This document shows, piece by piece, positions 18,834 through 30,851 of a stretch of DNA of 40,811 nt. Made by a program: the position numbers and the translations under genes. The notes beneath the pieces are model-generated. The model had not been told where the DNA came from. It saw only the letters and a list, made by a program, of their open reading frames with translations, and ran no database searches. Source of the DNA: an uncultured Myxococcales bacterium (GTDB lineage: Bacteria > Myxococcota_A > Polyangia > Polyangiales > Polyangiaceae); the NCBI GenBank assembly GCA_937902985.1, contig CALFNG010000383.1:1-40811 (forward strand), written 5' to 3'. Each line of letters opens with the position of its first letter. Position 1 is the stretch's first letter.

Positions 18834-19589
18834 ATGCGCGTTTTCCGGTTCATGCCGTCGTCGTCTTCGCTCTTCCTGTCGTCTCTCGTCATCATCTCCG
18901 GGGCCCTTGCGTGCGGCAGCGGAAACCCGAGCCGACCCGAGCCAGAGGCCCCTTTCCGGCCACCGGAACCCCCGCCGAGCGCCTTGCCCGTCGCCAGCGC
19001 CACCGCGCCCGGGCCGACGGCGACGCCCGGTCACCTGCCCGCGGCGTGCGCGGATGCCGCTTCGACCGTCTGCGCGCCGCCCGGCGAGTTCGTCGAGCGC
19101 CTGTGCGCGAAGCCCCTGCAAGACGTCGCGCTCGCCCTCTTTGCGAAAGAGACCCCCTTCACTCGCCTCTACCTGAAGGGCAAGTTCGACGAACTCGGCT
19201 TCGACGAAGAAGTGCTCGCGCTTAGATTTCACGGTCCGCAGAAGGGCGGGATGGTCGTGGGCAGCGGCAACGGCACCTACGACCTCCTGCGCTGGGACGG
19301 GACGTGTTCGCGGGGCGTCGAGGCGGAGATGATCGGCCGCACGCGGCCGGGCCGCCCCCGCAGCGCGCACGTCCAGTGGCACCGAATCGGCTCGACCTAT
19401 CAAGACGCGCTCATTGCCGGCAGCGACGCGGTGAAGCGCGCCCACGCGAGGCGCGGGAAGGAGTGTCAAGGCGCGATGAGCGGCGACGTCTCCCGGGCCT
19501 GCGAGGGGGCTGACGAAGCGCTCGCCGATGCCGTGGTCGACTTCGTCCGGACACACGGCGGACTACCTGAGCCAGGCACTATCCCCTAG
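18834..19589 (+). CDS. Putative lipoprotein of unknown function
   Basis: 251 residues from ATG 18834. A signal peptide (SLFLSSLVIISGALA) ends in a lipobox Cys (GALAC), followed by a Pro-rich linker (PRPEPEAPFRPPEPPPSALP). The mature domain of about 190 residues contains cysteines (CADAASTVCAPP, ERLCAKP, DGTCSRG, KECQGA, RACEGA) and motifs FTRLYLKGKFDELGFDEEVLAL and RPRSAHVQWHRIGSTYQDALIAGS. No enzymatic motif recognised. It diverges from the hypothetical gene at 18140-18772, leaving a 61-base shared promoter region. Confidence 0.75.
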   Translation: MRVFRFMPSSSSLFLSSLVIISGALACGSGNPSRPEPEAPFRPPEPPPSALPVASATAPGPTATPGHLPAACADAASTVCAPPGEFVERLCAKPLQDVALALFAKETPFTRLYLKGKFDELGFDEEVLALRFHGPQKGGMVVGSGNGTYDLLRWDGTCSRGVEAEMIGRTRPGRPRSAHVQWHRIGSTYQDALIAGSDAVKRAHARRGKECQGAMSGDVSRACEGADEALADAVVDFVRTHGGLPEPGTIP

Positions 19590-19740
19590 AGCCCCTCAGG
19601 GCGTGACTCCAAAGTCATACTATGGAGCACCCCGGGGATCGGCTAAGACGTCAGAAAGCAGGGTCAAATCGCTTGAATTGCTGTCGATTCGAAGGCTGGG
19701 GTCGTTCGTGGGTCGACGATTGCTAAGCACCCTGAGCTGG
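19590..19740. other. Atypical junction upstream of truncated gene
   Basis: About 150 bases of visibly lower GC and different texture from the flanking coding DNA (for example GGGTCAAATCGCTTGAATTG at 19662-19681). It contains two overlapping small inverted repeats that cannot form together: TGACT-CCAA-AGTCA and CTCCA ... TGGAG (about 19604-19626). It sits exactly where the next gene loses its N-terminal coding part, which suggests an insertion/deletion scar or a mobile-element remnant. No transposase coding is visible. Confidence 0.45.
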
Positions 19741-20433
19741 TTCTCCCCGTACGTCGCGACCAACTGGTTCCACGTCAACTCGCGGTTCGTCCCGTTCCTC
19801 TGGCTCGCGGCGCTCGCCCGGCTCCCTGATCGGCTGCCGCGGCGCGCGCTCGCGTTCCTCGGCGTCTGCGCGCTGTCGTATGCCGCGGGAATGGGCGCCG
19901 ACTACCTGCGGCTACGGCGCGACTGGTCGAGGTTCACCGCCGGCATCAGCGCGGTGCCCGAAGGGGCGCGGCTCTTGCCGCTGATCTTCAAGAGCAAGGA
20001 GACGAGTGAGAACACGCGGGCCCTGCTCCACGCCTGGGGCTTCTACGTGGTCGAGAAGCTGACGAGCGCCCCGCTCCTCTTCGCTCACTCGCGCAGCTTC
20101 CCCGTGATGTACAGGACGCCGCCGGATCCGCAGTTCAATCACCTCGTGCTCGAGAGCTTCGCCCCGACCATGGCATCGCCGGACTGGGGATGCGGAATCC
20201 TGCGGTCGGGAGGCGTGGTGACCGACGACTGCGATGCCGCGTGGCGGGGCCGCTGGGCCGACTTCTGGCGAAAGGCCGAGCCCAAGTTCGATCATGTCCT
20301 CATGTGGAGCGCGCCGCGCGACGTCATCGCGCAGGTGCCGTCGCGATACCGCGTGGCCTTCCAGCGCGACGAGGTCACGATCTTCGAGCGCGTCGACGGC
20401 ATGCCGAACTCGGCGTCAGCGTCACGGCAATAG
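19708..20433 (+). pseudogene. 5'-truncated membrane protein (C-terminal fragment)
   Basis: Convincing protein sequence begins only near 19735 (LSTLSWFSPYVATNWFHVNSR), continues through one or two hydrophobic segments (FVPFLWLAALARLP, ALAFLGVCALSYAAGMG), and then a soluble domain (AVPEGARLLPLIFKSKETSENTRALLHAWGFY, PLLFAHSRSFPVMYR, FAPTMASPDWGCG). This looks like the last 230 residues of a larger multi-pass myxobacterial membrane protein, in the style of GT-C glycosyltransferases, whose N-terminal helices are missing. GTG 19708 is the nearest possible start, and no clear ribosome site precedes it. It could still be expressed as a fragment. The last 12 bases overlap the convergent gene. Confidence 0.6.
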
Positions 20434-21265: not shown

Positions 21266-22828
21266 ATGCGTCGACAGGCTGGCGTCGTTCTGCCGCTCTT
21301 CGCGATCCGAACGCGCGACGACTGGGGAATCGGTCAGCTGACCGCTCTACCGGCGTGCGCCGCGTGGATCCGCCAGGGCGGTCAACGCCTCTTGCAAGTG
21401 CTTCCGCCGCACACGCTCTCGTCGGGAGAGACGAGCCCCTACGGCGCTCTCACCGCGTTCGGGCTCGATCCGATCTACGCGGACATCGGGGCGATCGAGG
21501 ACCTCGACGCGGCGAGAATCGACGATGCCCTCGGGTCCGACGGCAAGGCCGCGCTCGCCCGGGCGCGGGCAGCCGAGCTGGTCGACTACGACACGGTCCG
21601 CGATCTCAAGATGCGCGCCTTCGCGGTCGCCTTCACCCGCTTCGTTCGCCAGGACTGGGAGCATGATACGCCCCGCGCGAAGCGGCTCGCCGAGTTCATG
21701 CGGAGCGAGCGCGGCTGGCTCGACGACCTCGCACTCTACGAGGCGCTGCGCGCATCGCACGCCGGCTGGGGCTGGGCGAGCTGGCCCGAAGACGAGCGCG
21801 ACCGCGCCCCCGTCGCGCTGGCCGGTGCGCGCAAAGACCACGACCTCTATTTCCTCGAGATCGCGTACGTCCAGTGGACCTTGAGCTCTCAGTGGGAGGA
21901 CGCCCACGATCGAATGCGAGAGCTCGGCGTCGAGCTGATGGGCGACTTGCCCTTCGTCGTGGGGAGCGAGAGCGCCGACGTGTGGTCGCATACCGCGCAG
22001 TTTCAAATTCAGCTCTCGCTCGGGGCGCCGCCCGACGATTTCTCCGCCGACGGGCAAGACTGGGGACTCCCTCCGTACGACTGGCTCGCGATGGAGAGCG
22101 ACGATCTCGCGTGGGTCCGGATGCGCGCCCGCCACGCGGCCCGCCTCTACGACCGCTTCCGCCTCGATCACGTGGTCGGCTACTTCCGGCAGTGGGTCCG
22201 GCGCAGAGACGGCGTCGACCGCGGTCGCTTCGACCCGGCCGGCACTCAGGGGCAGCGCGCGCGGGGATGCCGCGTCCTCGGCGTGATGCTCGACGAGCTG
22301 TCGCGCGCGGCGGAGCCGATCGCCGGGCCTCGGATCATCGCCGAGGACCTCGGCGTCATTCCGCCGTTCGTGCGCGAGTCGATGCGGGAGCTCGGGATGC
22401 CGGGCTATCGCGTCTTGCCCTGGGAGAAGGACGCGACCGGGTTCCGCGACCCGAAGGCCTTTCCGAGCGAGAGCGTCGCTTCGTGGAGCACCCACGACAC
22501 GGCACCGATCGACGCCTGGTGGCCGGAGCTGCCGGAGTATGACCGGGTGCCGCTCGCCCGCCGTGCCGGCGTCGCCGCGGGGCTCGAAGACGACCCGGAG
22601 CGATCGATCGGACTCATCGGAGACCTTTACCGAGCAAGATCCGGCCTCGCGCTCGTTCTCGCCCAGGAGCTCCTCGGGTTGAAGGATCGCATCAACACAC
22701 CCGGGACCGTCGGGCCTCAGAACTGGCGATGGCGCCTCCCCAGGCCGATCGAAGACCTCGCGGAAGACGCCGCGGTCGTGGCGCGCATGAACGCGATCCG
22801 GGTCGCCGCGCGCGAGTCGGGGCGCTGA
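21266..22828 (+). CDS. malQ: 4-alpha-glucanotransferase (amylomaltase, GH77)
   Basis: 520 residues. It transfers alpha-1,4-glucan chains between maltodextrins in the cytosol. GH77 landmarks appear in order: SPYGALTAFGLDPIYADI, LMGDLPFVVGSESADVWSH, GQDWGLPPYDW, nucleophile Asp in YDRFRLDHVVGYFRQW, acid Glu in IIAEDLGVIPP, and STHDTAPI, with a C-terminal NTPGTVGPQNWRWRLP. ATG 21266 starts directly at the N-terminal (RQAGVVLPLFAIRTRDDWGIG). Upstream extension of the frame is antisense to the TonB-like gene. Stop and next start overlap as TGATG (22826-22830), so it is translationally coupled to glgX. Confidence 0.96.
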   Translation: MRRQAGVVLPLFAIRTRDDWGIGQLTALPACAAWIRQGGQRLLQVLPPHTLSSGETSPYGALTAFGLDPIYADIGAIEDLDAARIDDALGSDGKAALARARAAELVDYDTVRDLKMRAFAVAFTRFVRQDWEHDTPRAKRLAEFMRSERGWLDDLALYEALRASHAGWGWASWPEDERDRAPVALAGARKDHDLYFLEIAYVQWTLSSQWEDAHDRMRELGVELMGDLPFVVGSESADVWSHTAQFQIQLSLGAPPDDFSADGQDWGLPPYDWLAMESDDLAWVRMRARHAARLYDRFRLDHVVGYFRQWVRRRDGVDRGRFDPAGTQGQRARGCRVLGVMLDELSRAAEPIAGPRIIAEDLGVIPPFVRESMRELGMPGYRVLPWEKDATGFRDPKAFPSESVASWSTHDTAPIDAWWPELPEYDRVPLARRAGVAAGLEDDPERSIGLIGDLYRARSGLALVLAQELLGLKDRINTPGTVGPQNWRWRLPRPIEDLAEDAAVVARMNAIRVAARESGR

Positions 22829-24942
22829 TGTCGCCGACGTCGAACCCGCCGGCGCTCGAGGCCGGGAAGCCGGCCCCGCTCGGCGCCACGTGGGACGGAC
22901 GCGGCGTCAACTTCGCGCTCTTCAGCCAGCACGCGGTCGCGGTCGAGCTCTGCATGTTCGACGACGCGGGGGTCGAGAGGCGCATCGAGGTCCCGTGTCG
23001 TACCCGACACGTCTGGCACGTCTACGTGCCCGGCGTCGGACCGGGCCAGCGCTACGGGTGGCGCGTCGACGGACCGTACGCACCTGACCTCGGGCATCGC
23101 TTCAACAGGAACAAACTCCTCGTCGATCCCTATGCCCGCGCCGTCGACGGCGAGCTCGACACGAGAGGTCCCGTGTACGCCTTTCCGCGCGACCGGGCCC
23201 TCGACGATCGCATCTTCGATCCGCGCGACGACGCGGGCTCGAAGCCGAAATCGGTCGTCGTCGACGATCGGTTCGACTGGGGCGACGACCGCCCGCCGCA
23301 CGTGCCGTGGGACGAGACCGTCGTCTACGAGATGCACGTGAAGGGCTTCACCAAGCAACATCCCGCAGTGCCGGAGGCGCTCCGCGGCACCTACCTGGGC
23401 CTTGCGTCGGCTCCCGCCATCGAACACCTGCTCTCGCTGGGCGTCACGACCGTGAAGCTGATGCCCGTTCACGCGCGCGCGAACGAACCAGCGCTGGTCG
23501 CGCGAGGACTGACGAACTACTGGGGCTACAATACCCTCGCGTTCTTCGCGCCGGACGAGCGGTTCGCGAGCCGCCGCGGCGACGCGCGCGGCGAGTTCCG
23601 ACAGATGATCAAGCAGCTGCACGCCGCCGGGATCGAGGTCGTTCTCGACGTGGTTTACAACCACACGTGCGAGGGCGATCGCTTCGGCCCGACGGCGAAC
23701 TTTCGGGGCATCGACGACCTGATCTATTACCGCCACGAAGCGCGTGCCGCCGGCGTGTATCTGGACACCACCGGCTGCGGGAACACGGTCGACGCGTCTC
23801 AACCGCAGGTGCTCAAGCTGGTCACGGACAGCTTGCGATACTGGGCGACCGAGATGCACGTGGACGGCTTCCGCTTCGACCTCGCTCCGGCTCTGGCTCG
23901 CGACGGTAGCGGCTCCTTCGATCGCCGGAGTGTCTTCGTTGCTGCGCTCCACCAGGATCCCGTCTTGTCGAAGGTAAAACTCATCGCCGAGCCCTGGGAC
24001 CTCGGACCCGAGGGCTATCGGCTCGGGGACTTTCCCGTGCTCTGGACCGAGTACAACGACCGCTTCCGCGACACCGTTCGGCACTTCTGGCGCGGCGAGC
24101 GCAAGGTCGTTGCCGATCTCGGCTACCGGTTGACGGGCTCGAACGACATCTTCGGCGGAGCCCACCGGCCCCCTCAGGCGAGCTTGAACTTCGTGACGGT
24201 GCACGACGGATTCACGCTCCGCGATCTCGTCAGCTACGAATCGAGGCACAACGAGGCGAACGGGGAGGGGAACTCCGACGGGGGACCCGAGGGCTCGAGC
24301 CAGAACCTCGGCGTCGAAGGCGAGACGACCGACGCCACCGTGGTCGCGCGGCGGCAAACGATCGCACGGAGCCTGATGGCGACCATGTTCGTGTCCCAAG
24401 GGGTGCCGATGCTCGAGATGGGCGACGAGCTATGGCGCACGCAGCGTGGGAACAGCAACGCCTACTGTCACGACTCGGAGCTCACGTGGGTCGATTGGCG
24501 CGTCACCGCGGCGAGCGCCGCGATGCTCGCCGCGACGAGAGAGCTCATCGCCCTGCGAAGGCGGCTCGGGGGCCTGCGCCAGCGCGAGTTCCTGAACGGG
24601 GTTCGGGTCGAAGAGGGCCTCAAGGACATCACGTGGCTGCGGACCGACGGCACCGAGATGCAGCTCGCAGACTGGAAGGAGCCGCGGCGCGCCACGTTGG
24701 CGTTCCGTCTCCAGGGGCATCCGGCCGTGGTCGTGATGATGAACGCCGAGCCGGCGCCGGTGACATTCGCACCCGGCGATCCCATGGGCACATCGAGCTG
24801 GCGAGTCGCGTTCGATTCGAGCGAGCCGGGCGTTCGAGCGCGCGGGGCCGAGGGCCCCGCCGGGAGCGCGGGGGCTGTGGCAAGCGTCGAGGTCGCCGCG
24901 GGCGCGCTTGTCGTGCTCGTTTCGGAAGAGCGACGCGCGTAA
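22828..24942 (+). CDS. glgX: Glycogen debranching enzyme GlgX (isoamylase type, GH13)
   Basis: 704 residues. An N-terminal CBM48 domain (APLGATWDGRGVNFALFSQHAVAVELCMFD) precedes a GH13 barrel: LDVVYNHTCEGD (region I), DGFRFDLAPAL (nucleophile Asp), LIAEPWDLGPEGY (acid Glu), FVTVHDGFTLRDL (third Asp). ETVVYEMHVKGFT and GNSNAYCHDSELTWVDW are typical of GlgX/TreX. It hydrolyses alpha-1,6 branches in limit dextrins; with MalQ it recycles short glucans from glycogen breakdown. Followed after 14 bases by a hairpin, then the Amt gene. Confidence 0.95.
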   Translation: MSPTSNPPALEAGKPAPLGATWDGRGVNFALFSQHAVAVELCMFDDAGVERRIEVPCRTRHVWHVYVPGVGPGQRYGWRVDGPYAPDLGHRFNRNKLLVDPYARAVDGELDTRGPVYAFPRDRALDDRIFDPRDDAGSKPKSVVVDDRFDWGDDRPPHVPWDETVVYEMHVKGFTKQHPAVPEALRGTYLGLASAPAIEHLLSLGVTTVKLMPVHARANEPALVARGLTNYWGYNTLAFFAPDERFASRRGDARGEFRQMIKQLHAAGIEVVLDVVYNHTCEGDRFGPTANFRGIDDLIYYRHEARAAGVYLDTTGCGNTVDASQPQVLKLVTDSLRYWATEMHVDGFRFDLAPALARDGSGSFDRRSVFVAALHQDPVLSKVKLIAEPWDLGPEGYRLGDFPVLWTEYNDRFRDTVRHFWRGERKVVADLGYRLTGSNDIFGGAHRPPQASLNFVTVHDGFTLRDLVSYESRHNEANGEGNSDGGPEGSSQNLGVEGETTDATVVARRQTIARSLMATMFVSQGVPMLEMGDELWRTQRGNSNAYCHDSELTWVDWRVTAASAAMLAATRELIALRRRLGGLRQREFLNGVRVEEGLKDITWLRTDGTEMQLADWKEPRRATLAFRLQGHPAVVVMMNAEPAPVTFAPGDPMGTSSWRVAFDSSEPGVRARGAEGPAGSAGAVASVEVAAGALVVLVSEERRA

Positions 24943-24956
24943 ACCTGCTCGAAGCG

Positions 24957-24978
24957 AGCCCGAAACAGACTTCGGGCT
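24957..24978 (+). terminator. Hairpin between glgX and amt
   Basis: AGCCCGAA (24957-24964) and TTCGGGCT (24971-24978) are perfect complements with a 6-base loop. The stem follows the glgX stop and is not followed by a T-run, so it may be a weak terminator, attenuator or processing site that separates malQ-glgX from amt expression. Confidence 0.5.
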
Positions 24979-24994: not shown

Positions 24995-26317
24995 ATGGCG
25001 AAGATCGACCCCGGCGCGTGGCTCGTCGTATGCAGCGCGCTCGTACTGCTGATGGCGCCCGCCCTCGCGCTCTTCTACGCCGGTCGCGCCCCCGGGGCGA
25101 ACCCGAAGTCGATGCTGATCCGGTGGCTCGTCGCCCTGCCAATCCTCGCCATTCAGTGGGTCCTGTTCGGATACTCTCTCGCCTTCGGACCGACGCGACA
25201 CGGTCTCATTGGCGGTCTCGCGTACGCAGGAATGACCGGCGGCATCACGGACGTGCGCGGCGCCGTTCCAGCGATCGCCTTCGCGGCATGCCGCATGATG
25301 TTCGCGGTGATCGCGCCCGCGCTCATCTCGGGCGCGCTGGGCGCGCGAATGAAGCTCGGCGCCTACGTCGCGTTCGTCCTGTTCTGGTCGACCCTCGTCT
25401 ACGATCCGGTGGCCCACTGGCTGTGGGGGCACGGGGGTTGGCTCTCCCGCATCGGCGCGATCGACTTCGGCGGCGGCATCGTGGTCCATTGCACGACCGG
25501 CGTCTCCGCCGTGGTGTGCGCGCTGGTGATCGCGGAGCGCCCCAGCGATCCCGAGCGCCGGACGCTCGCCAGCGCGCTCGCCGGCGCCGCCGTGCTCTGG
25601 TTCGGCTGGTCGGCCTTGAACGCGGGTTCGGCTCTGGCCAGCGGGATCGTGCTCGGCCCGGCCTTCGTCACGACGCAGCTCGGCGCCGCGGGCGGAGGGC
25701 TCGGCTGGCTCGTCGTGGAGTGGTCGCAGCGCGGTCGACCGACGGCGATCGGCGTCGCCTACGGCGTGGTCTCGGGCCTCGTCGCGACGACGCCCGCCGC
25801 AGGGTACGTCGCTCCCTCGGCGGCCGTCGCAATCGGCTTCATCGCAGGCGCCGTGGGATATGGAACGGGCCTCGGCGTCGTCTGCGGCCTCGTTGCCGGC
25901 CTCCTGGCGATCACTGCGGGCGCGGGACACGTCGAGCCCGTGATGGCGATCGCGCTCGCCGGCATCGCGGGTGCCATCTGCTACGCGGCGGTGCTGCTCA
26001 AGGGTCGCTTCGGCTCACCGCGGGCGCCGGACCCCTTCGGAGTTCAAGGTGTCGGCGGTCTCGCGGGCGCATTGCTCACGGGCGTCTTCGCCCAGAAGGC
26101 GCTCAATCACGCGGGTGCGAACGGCGCGCTCTTCGGAAACCTGAGCCAGCTCGCGGTCCAGGCCGTCGCCTGCGTCGCGATCGGCGCCTACGCCGCGGTC
26201 GGCACGTTCGTGATCCTGAAGCTGATCGACGCGACGATCGGTCTCCGCGTCCCCGAGGTTCGCTTGCCGGAGGGGGCCGAAGCGCTCGCGGAGCCCCCCA
26301 CCGCGCGCGCCGCCTAG
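24995..26317 (+). CDS. Amt/AmtB-family ammonium transporter, atypical pore residues
   Basis: 440 residues with about 11 membrane helices from ATG 24995. Family landmarks: LFYAGR, VLFGYSLAFGP, RMMFAVIAPALISGAL, YDPVAHWLWGHGGWL, DFGGGIVVHCTTGVSA, LNAGSALAS, DPFGVQGVGGLAGALLTGVF. Matching E. coli AmtB (established family knowledge), Asp160 (D157 here), Trp148 (W144), Phe107 (F103), Ser219 (S212) and the first pore His168 (H165) are present. The second pore His318 is Gln (Q351), and the second gate Phe215 is Leu (L208). These positions control ammonium deprotonation and gating, so transport or sensing may be changed. No glnK/PII gene follows. Convergent with the ScfR-type regulator. Confidence 0.9.
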   Translation: MAKIDPGAWLVVCSALVLLMAPALALFYAGRAPGANPKSMLIRWLVALPILAIQWVLFGYSLAFGPTRHGLIGGLAYAGMTGGITDVRGAVPAIAFAACRMMFAVIAPALISGALGARMKLGAYVAFVLFWSTLVYDPVAHWLWGHGGWLSRIGAIDFGGGIVVHCTTGVSAVVCALVIAERPSDPERRTLASALAGAAVLWFGWSALNAGSALASGIVLGPAFVTTQLGAAGGGLGWLVVEWSQRGRPTAIGVAYGVVSGLVATTPAAGYVAPSAAVAIGFIAGAVGYGTGLGVVCGLVAGLLAITAGAGHVEPVMAIALAGIAGAICYAAVLLKGRFGSPRAPDPFGVQGVGGLAGALLTGVFAQKALNHAGANGALFGNLSQLAVQAVACVAIGAYAAVGTFVILKLIDATIGLRVPEVRLPEGAEALAEPPTARAA

Positions 26318-26343: not shown

Positions 26344-27798
26344 TCAGCGAAGGACGCGAAGCGGAACGGGCGCGTAGAGCGACACGCCGCGCACGTTCTC
26401 GTCGACATGAAGCGGATGACGGATCGACGGGAACGCTCGTTGCTCACAGTCGGTTCGCTCGCACAGGCGGCAGGTCACGCCAACGGGGGTCGCACTGTGC
26501 GCGCTCTCGAGATCGATGCCGTCGGAGTAGACCATCTGGCGTGCGTGCTCGACGCGACACCCCAGCCCGATCGACTGAACCGGTTGCTGCGCGTGGTAAC
26601 CGCTGGAGTCTTTGTGAATGGTGCGAGCGATGCAAAAATACGTCGCCCCATCGGTGAAGCGCGAGAGCTGGATGCGGATCATTCCCGGCGTCATGAACGC
26701 GGCGAACACGTTCCAGCGTGGGCACGCGCCCGAGAAGCGCGCGAAGCGAATGCCGCTCGAGCTGAATCGCTTCGAGATGTTCCCGGCGACGTCGATCCGG
26801 ATCATGTGGAACGGCACGGCCTCTGCGCTCGGTCTTCGCAGCGTCGTGAAGCGGTGACAGAGCTGCTCGAACCCCACCCGGAAGCGGCGGCCGATGACGT
26901 CGAGGTCATAGCGCTCCGCGCGGCACGCCTCGAGGAACGGCATGTACGGCATGAGCACCGCGCCCGCGAAGTAGTTCGCGAGCGCCACACGCGCCAGGCC
27001 GCGAGACTCGTCGGTCGTCAGGTGCGCGTCGGCGAGCAAGCGATCGATGCCGGCGTGCCCCGCCAGGAGCGCGATCTGGTGCGCGAGCTGGAACGTCCGC
27101 GATCGCGTCGGCAGGAGCTCGCTCAGCGTCAGGATCTTTTTCTCGACCTCGAAGCGGCGTAGGATTCCGCGCTCCGCTTCGCCGCGCGCGATGCGGACGT
27201 GCACCCCGTGTTGCTTGTCGAGGTATCGAATGAGCCCCGGGTACAGCTCTTCGGGATCGAGGCGGGCCTTCTTCCACAGCTCCTCTGCGCCCTCTTCGAG
27301 CTCGGGGAAGTAGTTCATATGGCCCTGAATCAGGTCGCTCACCTCTTCCGACGGGAGGAGCGACCGGTCCGGCCCCGTCGCGTCTTCGCCGTCGAGCCGC
27401 GAGGCGAGCTCCTCGCCGGCCGCACGTTGCGTCTTGTAAGAGGTGTAGAGAGCGAGCATCGCCCTCGCGACCTGCGGCTGGTTAACCGCGAGGTCCCGAA
27501 CGTCGGTCGACGCCAGGAGGTGGCCGTCGAAGAGGGGATCGGAGAACGCCTCGAGGAGGTCATGCACGAGGCGCGCGTCGTCGTCGGCGCCGAACGCGTG
27601 CAGATCGATCCCGAAGAGCTGCGCCAGCTTGATGAGAAGCGCCGCGGGGAGAGGCCGCCGGTTCGATTCGATGAGGTTGAGATAACTAGGTGAGATGCCT
27701 AGTCTTTCGGCCAGCTGTACCTGGCTCAAGATCTCCCGGCGCCGAAGGGCGCGCACCTTGGGACCGAGCTTCGGCAGCTCTCTGCTCGGTTGACTCAT
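26344..27798 (-). CDS. XRE-family regulator of the RamB/ScfR (short-chain fatty acyl) type
   Basis: 484 residues from ATG 27798. An N-terminal XRE helix-turn-helix (VRALRRREILSQVQLAERLGISPSYLNLIESNRRPL) is followed by an ImmA/IrrE-like middle domain in which the usual HExxH is degenerate (FQLAHQIALL), then the ScfR C-terminal domain with a cysteine cluster (CRLCERTDCEQRAFP) and SGACPRWN. RamB of Corynebacterium and related ScfRs control glyoxylate-cycle and acetate genes and respond to acyl-CoA-type signals. Its divergent position from aceB-aceA strongly supports the same role here. ATG 27831 is an alternative start, but it lies within a TGACA/TGTCA palindrome, so 27798 is preferred. Confidence 0.9.
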   Translation of the reverse strand: MSQPSRELPKLGPKVRALRRREILSQVQLAERLGISPSYLNLIESNRRPLPAALLIKLAQLFGIDLHAFGADDDARLVHDLLEAFSDPLFDGHLLASTDVRDLAVNQPQVARAMLALYTSYKTQRAAGEELASRLDGEDATGPDRSLLPSEEVSDLIQGHMNYFPELEEGAEELWKKARLDPEELYPGLIRYLDKQHGVHVRIARGEAERGILRRFEVEKKILTLSELLPTRSRTFQLAHQIALLAGHAGIDRLLADAHLTTDESRGLARVALANYFAGAVLMPYMPFLEACRAERYDLDVIGRRFRVGFEQLCHRFTTLRRPSAEAVPFHMIRIDVAGNISKRFSSSGIRFARFSGACPRWNVFAAFMTPGMIRIQLSRFTDGATYFCIARTIHKDSSGYHAQQPVQSIGLGCRVEHARQMVYSDGIDLESAHSATPVGVTCRLCERTDCEQRAFPSIRHPLHVDENVRGVSLYAPVPLRVLR

Positions 27799-27825
27799 GA
27801 CCTTGGTTGCATCTCCGCCAGACGT

Positions 27826-27862
27826 TGACATACTGTCACAGATTTACAACGTGTCATTGACA
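27826..27862. promoter_or_regulatory. Twin palindromic operator candidates between scfR and aceB
   Basis: TGACA-TAC-TGTCA (27826-27838) is a perfect 5-3-5 inverted repeat. TGTCA-T-TGACA (27852-27862) is the same half-sites in everted order, 13 bases further on. Both lie in the short divergent region between the ScfR-type regulator and aceB. TTGACA at 27857-27862 could also serve as a -35 element. Likely the site where the regulator controls itself and aceBA (inference). Confidence 0.6.
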
Positions 27863-27901
27863 ATTCTGAACGAGGCCTTCTTCAACGAGCTTTTCGAGCG
27901 C

Positions 27902-27930
27902 TTGACCGTTCCTGAGCAATGTTTCATGTA
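27902..27930 (+). promoter_or_regulatory. Possible promoter of aceB
   Basis: TTGACC (27902-27907) and CATGTA (27925-27930) are 17 bases apart, a plausible sigma-70-like pair. It would give a very short leader before ATG 27940. The -10 match is poor, so this is a weak call; the TTGACA at 27857 is an alternative -35. Confidence 0.3.
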
Positions 27931-27939
27931 AGGTGCGCG

Positions 27940-29565
27940 ATGTCGGATGCCTCGGCCCTTCAGCCTGAAAAAGCCTTCCCCCAAGGCGTGTCGCTAGTCG
28001 GTCCGACCCGACCGGATTATTCCCGTGTATTGACGCCGGCTGCGGTCTCCTTCGTGACCGATCTTGCGCGCACGTTCAGGCCGCGCCTCGAGGAGCTGCT
28101 CGCCCGCCGGGCGGCCAGGCAGGTTCAGTTTGACGCGGGGGCGCGCCCCGACTTTCTCGGCGAGACCGCCGACATGCGCGCGCGCGACTGGAAGGTCGCG
28201 GCGTTGCCGGGCGACCTGCTCGACCGTCGCACGGAGATCACCGGCCCGACCGACCGGAAGATGGTCATCAACGCGCTCAATTCGGGCGCGAGCGTCTTCA
28301 TGGCGGACTTCGAAGACGCCAACAGTCCCACCTGGGACAACATGGTCGATGGCCAGCTCAACCTGGCAGACGCGGTGCGGCGGACGATCACGCTGACGGC
28401 CGAGACGGGCAAGAAGTACGCGCTCAAAGAGAAGACCGCCGTGCTCTTCGTCCGACCGCGCGGCTGGCACCTCGTCGAGCGGCACATGGTCGTCGACGGC
28501 AAGCCCGTCCCCGGGGGTCTCTTCGATTTCGGGATGTTCTTCTTCCACAACGCGCGTGAGGCGATGGCGCGCGGCACGGGCCCCTATTTTTACCTGCCGA
28601 AGATGGAGAGCCACCTCGAGGCTCGCCTGTGGAACGACGTGTTCGTCCGCGCCCAAGCCAAGCTCGGGGTCCCGCAGGGGACGATCAAGGCGACCTGTCT
28701 CATCGAGACGTTGCCCGCCGCGTTCGAGATGGACGAGTTCCTCTACGAACTCCGCGAGCACTCGGCGGGCCTCAACTGCGGGCGCTGGGACTACATCTTC
28801 AGCTTCATCAAGAAGCGCGCGAACGACCCGGCGGCGGTGTTGCCCGACCGCTCGCAAATCACGATGGACAAGGGGTTCCTGGCGGCCTACGTCAAGCTCC
28901 TCATCAAGACGTGCCATCGACGCGGCGTCCACGCGATGGGCGGCATGGCCGCGCAGATTCCCATCAAAGACGATCCGGCGGCCAACGAGGCGGCCCTCGA
29001 GAAGGTCCGCGCCGACAAGCTCCGCGAGGTCACGGCGGGGCACGACGGAACGTGGGTCGCGCATCCGGGGCTCGTGCCCATCGCCAAGGCGATCTTCGAC
29101 GCGCACATGTCGGGGCCAAATCAGCTCGGCGTCTTGCGGGAAGACGTGCACGTCGGTCAGGCCGACCTCCTGCAAGTTCCCGAAGGGGCGCGCACCGACG
29201 ACGGCCTCCGGCACAACGTCCGGGTGGGCATTCAGTACATCGAGGCCTGGCTCAGAGGGAACGGCTGCGTTCCGCTCTATCACCTGATGGAAGACGCCGC
29301 GACCGCGGAGATCTCCCGGGCGCAGGTCTGGCAGTGGCTGCGCCACAAGGCCACCGTCGACGGAATCCCGTTCGAGAAGGACCGCTTCGCCCGCGTCGTC
29401 GAAGAAGAGATGCAGCGGATCCGCCGCGAGGTGGGCGACGCCCGGTTCACCGGGGGTCGCTTCCCCGAGGCGCGCGAGCTCTTCGTCCGGCTGTCGACGG
29501 CCCCGAAGTTCGAGGACTTCTTGACCCTGGCTGCGTATGACCTGCTCGTCACGGAATCGAAATAG
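27940..29565 (+). CDS. aceB: Malate synthase A
   Basis: Condenses glyoxylate with acetyl-CoA to malate, the second step of the glyoxylate shunt. 541 residues, the size of the A-type enzyme. Family signatures: [85 protein letters not shown] and [12 protein letters not shown] 27940 has AAGG seven bases upstream and starts just before the conserved region; the ATG at 27919 would add seven residues. Fourteen bases separate its stop from aceA, so they form an operon, presumably controlled by the divergent ScfR-type gene. Expected to be induced on acetate or fatty acids. Confidence 0.96.
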
Positions 29566-29579
29566 GAGAATCACGTCCC

Positions 29580-30851
29580 ATGTCTACTGCGACTCAAGCC
29601 GCTTCCGGCGAACGCCTGCATGCAGCGCGCTTCGACGGCATCGTTCGTCCCTACTCCAAAGCAGACGTGGAACGGCTGCGCGGCTCGGTACACATCGAAC
29701 ACACCCTCGCCAGGCTGGGGGCCAAGCGCCTCTGGGAGCTCCTCCACAGCGAGGCGTACATCAACGCGCTCGGCGCCATGTCCGGCAACCAGGCCGTCCA
29801 GCAGGTCCGCGCCGGCCTCAAGGCCATCTACCTCTCGGGCTGGCAGGTCGCGGCGGACGCGAACCTCGCGGGCCAGATGTACCCGGACCAGTCGCTCTAC
29901 CCGGCGAACAGCGTCCCCGCCGTCGTCAAGAAGATCAACGCGGCGCTCGAGCGCGCGGATCAGATCGAGCACGGCGAGGGAAAGAGCGAACGCAACTGGT
30001 TCGCGCCGATCGTCGCCGACGCGGAAGCAGGGTTCGGCGGTCCGCTGAACGCCTTCGAGCTCATGAAGTCGATGATCGAGGCGGGCGCCGCCGGCGTCCA
30101 TTTCGAAGATCAGCTCGCGAGCGAAAAAAAATGCGGACACATGGGCGGCAAGGTGCTCATCCCCACGGGCGCTTTCATCCGCACACTCATCGCGGCGCGC
30201 CTCGCGGCCGACGTATCGAACGTGCCGACGCTCCTCGTCGCGCGCACCGACGCCGACAGCGCGAAGCTCCTGACGAGCGACATCGACGAGCGCGACCGCC
30301 CGTTCATCCAGTCGGGCGAGCGCACGGCCGAGGGCTTCTACCGGATCAAGCACGGCACCGACACGGCGATCGCCCGTGGCCTTGCCTACGCGCCCTACGC
30401 GGACCTCATCTGGTGCGAGACGAGCACCCCCGACCTCGTTCAGGCGAAGAAGTTCGCTGAGGCGATCCGCGCCAAGTTCCCGAACAAGCCCCTCGCGTAC
30501 AACTGCTCGCCGAGCTTCAACTGGAAGAAGAACCTCGACGACGCGACGATCGCCAAGTTCCAGCGTGAGCTTGGCGCGATGGGTTACAAATTTCAGTTCG
30601 TCACGCTCGCGGGCTTCCACTCGCTCAACTTCGGAATGTTCGAGCTCGCGCACAAGTACAAGGACCGCGGCATGGCGGCGTACAGCGAGCTTCAGCAGGC
30701 GGAGTTCGACGCCGAGAGCCACGGCTACACGGCGACTCGCCACCAGCGCGAGGTCGGCACCGGCTACTTCGATCAGGTCGCCGAGGTCATTTCGGGCGGC
30801 AAGGCGTCGACGCTCGCGCTCGAAGATTCGACCGAAGAGCACCAGTTCTGA
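29580..30851 (+). CDS. aceA: Isocitrate lyase
   Basis: Splits isocitrate to glyoxylate and succinate, bypassing the CO2-losing steps of the TCA cycle. 423 residues. The catalytic signature KKCGHM is present ([19 protein letters not shown]), together with [54 protein letters not shown] and [18 protein letters not shown] lies 10-13 bases upstream of ATG. It ends with a strong hairpin 15 bases after the stop, closing the aceBA operon. Confidence 0.97.

Follow-up and report, generated by a model that had tools for sequence, protein, structure and literature searches.

Can an ammonium transporter (Amt) still move ammonium when one member each of its twin-His pair and its Phe gate has been replaced, and, if it cannot, why does its gene retain an open frame? 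These questions are raised by a divergent amt gene in a 40,811-nucleotide stretch of contig CALFNG010000383.1 (hereafter, the window) from an uncultured Myxococcales bacterium of the family Polyangiaceae. The only natural variation described for the twin-His pair is a glutamate in place of the first histidine, found in some fungal Mep proteins, and the invariance of the pair apart from this glutamate has been used as an argument for its mechanistic importance (Williamson et al., PMC7447429). The original prediction, made from the letters of the window, held that this Amt keeps the first residue of each pair and changes the second, and remarked that known variants more often alter the first histidine, in agreement with PMC7447429. 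It proposed that the changes could alter ion selectivity or turn the protein into a sensor, and called the genomic setting unusual.

Mutants of Escherichia coli AmtB indicate what such changes can do. The H318A variant behaves as a channel for NH4+ that does not saturate, lets K+ through as well and no longer relies on proton hopping (PMC7447429); it supports growth on ammonium (PMC7447429, PMC3647058) and does not carry methylammonium (PMC3647058). For F215L, a strong drop in ammonium and methylammonium uptake is stated in a passage of PMC6856177 that cites earlier work. Our literature search found no test of H318Q itself, nor any paper on a change at H318 combined with F215L.

The gene and its pore residues

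The reading frame encodes 440 amino acids plus a stop codon, contains no internal stops, and ends about 20 residues past the RVPEV motif. It matches the PF00909 profile with an E-value of 1.3e-86 and 291 bits (gathering cut-off, 23.2), and PF00909 is the sole domain found, with no fused signalling domain. Against TIGR00836 the protein scores 324.5, under the curated cut-off of 343.3, where its relatives score 444–467. A search of viral contigs with the protein returned no relative. Alignment columns were assigned from an alignment with E. coli AmtB and 36 other Amts, and from a second alignment with 14 near relatives, giving the following features.

24995–26317, + strand: divergent amt gene, the start of which aligns with the MAKID of a same-genus orthologue
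25289–25303, + strand: Cys99-Arg100-Met-Met-Phe103, i.e. F103C and Q104R (AmtB numbering) beside the retained outer Phe (AmtB F107)
25487–25489, + strand: His165, codon CAT, the retained first twin-His residue (AmtB H168; alignment)
25616–25618, + strand: Leu208, codon TTG, in the AmtB Phe215 column (inner Phe gate), with F213S and G214A just before it
26045–26047, + strand: Gln351, codon CAA, in the AmtB His318 column (alignments and motif survey)

Coordinates and residue numbers given in the original prediction proved correct, as did its reading of the pore: both alignments place Gln351 in the H318 column and Leu208 in the F215 column, the AmtB comparison that it had proposed puts no His or Phe at either, and the first His (H165) and the first Phe (F103, equivalent to AmtB F107) are present. 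Equivalents of AmtB W148, D160, W212 and S219 are also preserved. An Arg at the Q104 column and a Pro at the 314 column lie in or near the pore; the Arg, close to the Phe gate, together with the loss of AmtB F103, should further weaken cation binding.

The H318 column holds His in all 66 alignable Amts from many phyla. The F215 column likewise holds Phe in 66 of 66, a figure biased by the fetching of these loci via WFGWFGF, which presupposes F215; a set of 31 subfamily members is unaffected by this bias. The survey of Myxococcota suggested by the original prediction was run on the Gln form of the TM10 motif, searched as DNA with D-x-F-G-[IVM]-Q-G-x-x-G, a pattern that covers AmtB-type motifs only. 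Of 377 genomes searched in the phylum, the present one alone has this form, and a further 299 genomes, from the phylum to which a Rhodospirillales locus belongs, gave no match. With His in place of Gln, the motif was found 82 times, distributed over 70 of the family's 108 genomes.

A duplicated TM8-TM9 hairpin

TM8-TM9 is duplicated in tandem (41 residues), with the frame kept and the copies diverged, a feature that the original prediction had missed. The PF00909 profile aligns in two pieces, each of which uses profile positions 252–289, and when the protein is compared with itself, a single repeat displaced by 41 residues stands out (score 88, against 38 for the runner-up).

25748–25861, + strand: TM8-TM9 hairpin copy 1, residues 252–289, at the canonical place in the structural model
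25871–25984, + strand: TM8-TM9 hairpin copy 2, residues 293–330, the extra copy, of low model confidence

The copies share only 57% of their DNA over the 53 codons compared, which rejects duplication during assembly as their source. Every aligned relative has a single TM8-TM9, no other carrier is evident in the 108 family genomes (next best match, 113 bits, vs 262 for the protein against itself), and a literature search, which was not exhaustive, returned no description of helix duplication within Amts. The two helices that copy 2 contributes are strongly hydrophobic, and adding helices in an even number leaves the topology unchanged; 13 transmembrane (TM) helices are therefore expected, not 11. 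An AlphaFold2 model built with 49 relatives has the Amt fold (mean pLDDT 83.7), with copy 1 confidently modelled and the additional hairpin, copy 2, at pLDDT 51–66 (about residues 290–345), values that are expected because the insert is absent from all relatives. Compared with structures of Amts and Mep2, the model gives Z scores of 51–55, including 54 to both Amt-1 and AmtB.

Genomic setting and orthologues

The position of amt after malQ-glgX, noted in the original prediction, is correct, and two features lie immediately upstream.

22828–24942, + strand: glgX, the stop codon of which lies 52 bases before the amt start
24957–24978, + strand: perfect 8-bp hairpin AGCCCGAA-ACAGAC-TTCGGGCT in the glgX-amt gap, with no T run and not scored as a terminator

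A scan for promoters and terminators detected neither a promoter-like site nor a terminator; the DNA hairpin may belong to some other type of terminator or attenuator. As no promoter-like site was found, expression of amt is uncertain. Downstream, at 26344–30851 of the window, a short-chain acyl-CoA regulator (HTH, Peptidase_M78, ScfRs) is encoded divergently from aceB-like and aceA-like genes (malate synthase and isocitrate lyase), forming a glyoxylate-bypass cluster that has the same order in the same-genus genome G001.

No PII gene (glnK) is present in the window. The original prediction regarded this absence as unusual, and a PII gene does lie nearby in 53 of 80 amt loci of other bacteria and archaea; within this family, however, none of 20 flanks of subfamily relatives holds one (some of these contigs are short). 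Loss of a former glnK operon is ruled out as an account of the absence, the subfamily being without nearby PII genes in this family. Six PII-family genes occur in the same genome, at least one of them adjoining a canonical Amt. The genome encodes six other Amts, all with both His and both Phe, the nearest of which is about 43% identical. The same genome (G000) has, on its contig C311, two canonical Amt genes of different subtypes (18994–20325, L006; 42160–43380, L005) separated by about 22 kb.

The nearest sequence is a canonical Amt from another genome of the same genus, G002 (L051, 1217–2512, − strand), at 68% identity. A tree pairs the two proteins with a support of 79 and terminal branches of 0.70 for the window Amt vs 0.08 for the G002 protein, which itself shares 85% identity with an Amt from a different genus. 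The G002 gene is an orthologue by the tree and by a nearby glgX, shares the start and also lacks a nearby glnK. In contrast to the window Amt, its product has both His, both Phe, one TM8-TM9, the DD motif, full loops and the EGLDxxxHGExAY tail. Since this orthologue is canonical, a single lineage acquired both the substitutions and the duplicated hairpin. The adjacency of glgX and amt is only partly common to the two genomes, as one inverted gene, probably encoding a lipoprotein (L051, 2618–3997, opposite strand), intervenes in G002 and is missing there in the window. In G001 (77% complete), malQ-glgX is followed by an opposite-strand gene for a PAS/histidine-kinase-like protein (L079, 1764–4247) in place of amt, and no Amt of the window type was found in that genome; such a gene looks dispensable in the genus.

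Replacement of conserved residues on the cytoplasmic side

Replacement extends well beyond the pore pair. Of 117 columns invariant in the 31 other subfamily members, 25 are altered in the window Amt, as against 0–4 in equally divergent members; one of these, L027, has an equal number of differences from the consensus (132 columns), yet only two changed invariant columns. In AmtB numbering the altered invariant columns are:

V36A, V41P, L42K, Q104R, T111A, E121A, F125L, A162G, T165I
G183A, F213S, G214A, F215L, L259I, S263Y, A267S, I272T
Y308S, D309P, D310R, L312P, H318Q, E390L, L394A, D395E

Counting all near-invariant sites, more than 40 replacements are found besides the Gln and Leu of the pore pair, including F103C, K39A and A314P. 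Several of the altered stretches, as placed by the alignment, form the cytoplasmic face.

25085–25126, + strand: first cytoplasmic loop, in which the sister's MVRRKNVLSTLMH is replaced by RAPGANPKSMLIR
25529–25567, + strand: third cytoplasmic loop, four residues shorter and without the PHNL/PHDL motif
26015–26035, + strand: fifth cytoplasmic loop and TM10 start, with YDDSLDA replaced by SPRAPDP
26261–26314, + strand: C-terminal tail, without the EGLDxxxHGExAY motif

In place of the DD motif that precedes TM10 stands PR, and the cytoplasmic motifs through which Amts contact PII are lost. At sites conserved in at least 90% of sequences, 34 of 88 are changed in the cytoplasmic half vs 15 of 94 in the other half (p 0.0008, with assumed, approximate AmtB helix limits). 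The bias is robust to jittering of the limits (median p 0.0014), to omission of the tail (p 0.001) and to circular shifts (p 0.022), and is weaker on strictly invariant sites (median p 0.04). A frameshift was considered as the source of the altered loops and tail and rejected: the codon alignment shows substitutions and three indels, all in frame, and gives no sign of a compensating frameshift.

Selection on the divergent branch

In our own implementation of an MG94-type branch model (F3x4, 371 codons), omega is 0.12 on the window Amt branch and 0.069 elsewhere, values that are rough because silent sites are near saturation and GC3 is unequal between the two genomes. Neutrality is rejected for the whole branch (2dlnL 58), and the branch omega is not significantly higher than the background (2dlnL 3.0). 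The two hairpin copies jointly give an omega of 0.26 and also reject neutrality (2dlnL 8.0); copy 2 by itself is indistinguishable from neutral. All three indels relative to the G002 sister keep the frame, and differences at codon positions 1, 2 and 3 number 84, 77 and 170. In simulations, roughly 125 neutral changes produce 25 hits at invariant sites, and by interpolation about 38% of such runs remain free of stops. GC content at codon positions 1 and 2 is 0.635, vs 0.55–0.605 in all relatives measured.

Discussion

The functional reading in the original prediction fared unevenly. The Gln and Leu changes are real, very rare, and fall at positions that matter in AmtB mutants, but a reading centred on this pore pair is too narrow, because the pair forms a small part of a wider remodelling that is accompanied by the hairpin duplication. 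The sensor role was not supported, given the missing signalling domain, the loss of PII-contact motifs, and the twin-His and Phe gate that the sensor Ks-Amt5 keeps (PMC10433425).

We favor, with a probability of roughly 50%, the reading that the product is transport-impaired, is not under PII control, and has been kept under weaker or altered selection; the loss of transport is argued by analogy with single AmtB mutants, and the variant is one sequence from a single draft genome. The gene is this lineage's orthologue of the ordinary Amt of the family and would have been released from the usual constraint after the split from its same-genus sister. On its branch, where replacement is accelerated and biased to the cytoplasmic side, it gained the TM8-TM9 duplication (and hence 13 predicted TM helices) and lost the second twin-His residue, the inner Phe of the gate and the cytoplasmic motifs that serve gating and the docking of PII, with the predicted Amt fold and much of the periplasmic half retained. 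We infer that the product folds as an Amt and would not carry out selective, PII-controlled, deprotonation-coupled ammonium uptake, allowing at most slow or leaky passage of NH3/NH4+ past a His/Gln pore. Its old role may be covered by the six other Amts of the genome, and it would be subject to weaker or different selection, and would count neither as a standard transporter nor as a specialised sensor.

A long-dead pseudogene is excluded because substitution on the branch is non-neutral overall. A recent one is less likely than the favored reading, though it has to be considered: a normal Amt would have persisted along most of the branch and only lately begun to drift without function, its frame so far unbroken. 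The invariant-site hits correspond to some 125 neutral changes, with about 38% of simulated drifts stop-free; copy 2 is compatible with neutrality, codon positions 1 and 2 are more GC-rich than in the measured relatives, no promoter-like site was detected, G001 has no Amt at this place, and six other Amts are present in the genome. On the other hand, 440 codons remain stop-free with three indels all in frame, the replacements are concentrated on the cytoplasmic side instead of evenly spread, and the joint rejection of neutrality by the hairpin copies implies that selection maintained the form with 13 helices for a while. Sequencing or assembly error is scarcely credible: the genome is a draft of 563 contigs, but the frame is open, differences from the sister are codon-periodic (84/77/170), hairpin copies 57% identical in DNA are no assembly repeat, and neighbouring genes match the same genus.

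Other readings grant the protein a positive function. A working Amt derivative of 13 helices, made by the hairpin duplication and operating through a His/Gln pore and a Phe/Leu gate free of PII control, seems unlikely. A reading in which Gln351 and Leu208 create a wetter, less selective pore, selected for PII-free passage of NH4+ (perhaps K+) or NH3, is improbable. AmtB H318A is non-saturable and K+-passing (PMC7447429) with ammonium growth retained (PMC3647058), the first His and the equivalents of D160, W148, S219 and F107 are present, and the PII-docking motifs are lost; yet F215L strongly lowers AmtB transport according to that same passage of PMC6856177, Arg and Pro occupy the Q104 and 314 columns, within the pore or close to it, the trimer may be upset by the added hairpin, and an unregulated cation leak would be costly. 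We consider it very improbable that the protein is a transport-dead sensor that binds periplasmic ammonium and signals, or a regulatory subunit in mixed trimers with canonical Amts. Part of the periplasmic binding site (W148, S219, F107) is kept while transport residues are lost, and the model matches sensor Amts at Z 49–50, as would any Amt. However, a signalling domain is neither fused nor adjacent, degradation is greatest on the cytoplasmic face, the known sensor Ks-Amt5 has an intact Phe gate and twin-His (PMC10433425), and the closest of the genome's Amts that could serve as partners share only about 43% identity with it.

What makes the window Amt interesting is, above all, that it amounts to a natural experiment on how the twin-His pair and the Phe gate work. 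It offers a direct test case, in which the second His is missing, a gate change that is crippling in AmtB is present, and a helical hairpin has been added: either transport persists along a different path, or the entire apparatus is given up as soon as one of its elements can be spared. It also provides an example of hairpin duplication within the Amt fold. Should the unlikely reading of a working 13-helix derivative be true, the protein would be a natural test of the two-lane transport model, and we know of no earlier natural prokaryotic Amt that lacks the second twin-His residue.

Like E. coli AmtB and Archaeoglobus fulgidus Amt-1 (PF00909, TIGR00836), the protein is modelled with the Amt fold (Z 54) and has the equivalents of F107, W148, D160, H168, W212 and S219. 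It differs from them in carrying Gln for H318, Leu for F215 and Arg for Q104, in having 13 predicted TM helices rather than 11, and in scoring under the TIGR00836 cut-off. With the sensor Amts Ks-Amt5 and Sd-Amt1 it shares an Amt fold that possibly serves outside ordinary transport; these proteins carry signalling domains, whereas the window Amt has none, and Ks-Amt5 has both the Phe gate and the twin-His pair intact (PMC10433425), where the window Amt has neither. The fungal proteins Mep1 and Mep3 resemble it in that one twin-His residue has been naturally swapped for another (PMC9040831, PMC7447429), but there the first His is replaced by Glu, whereas in this bacterial protein the second is replaced by Gln, together with further losses.
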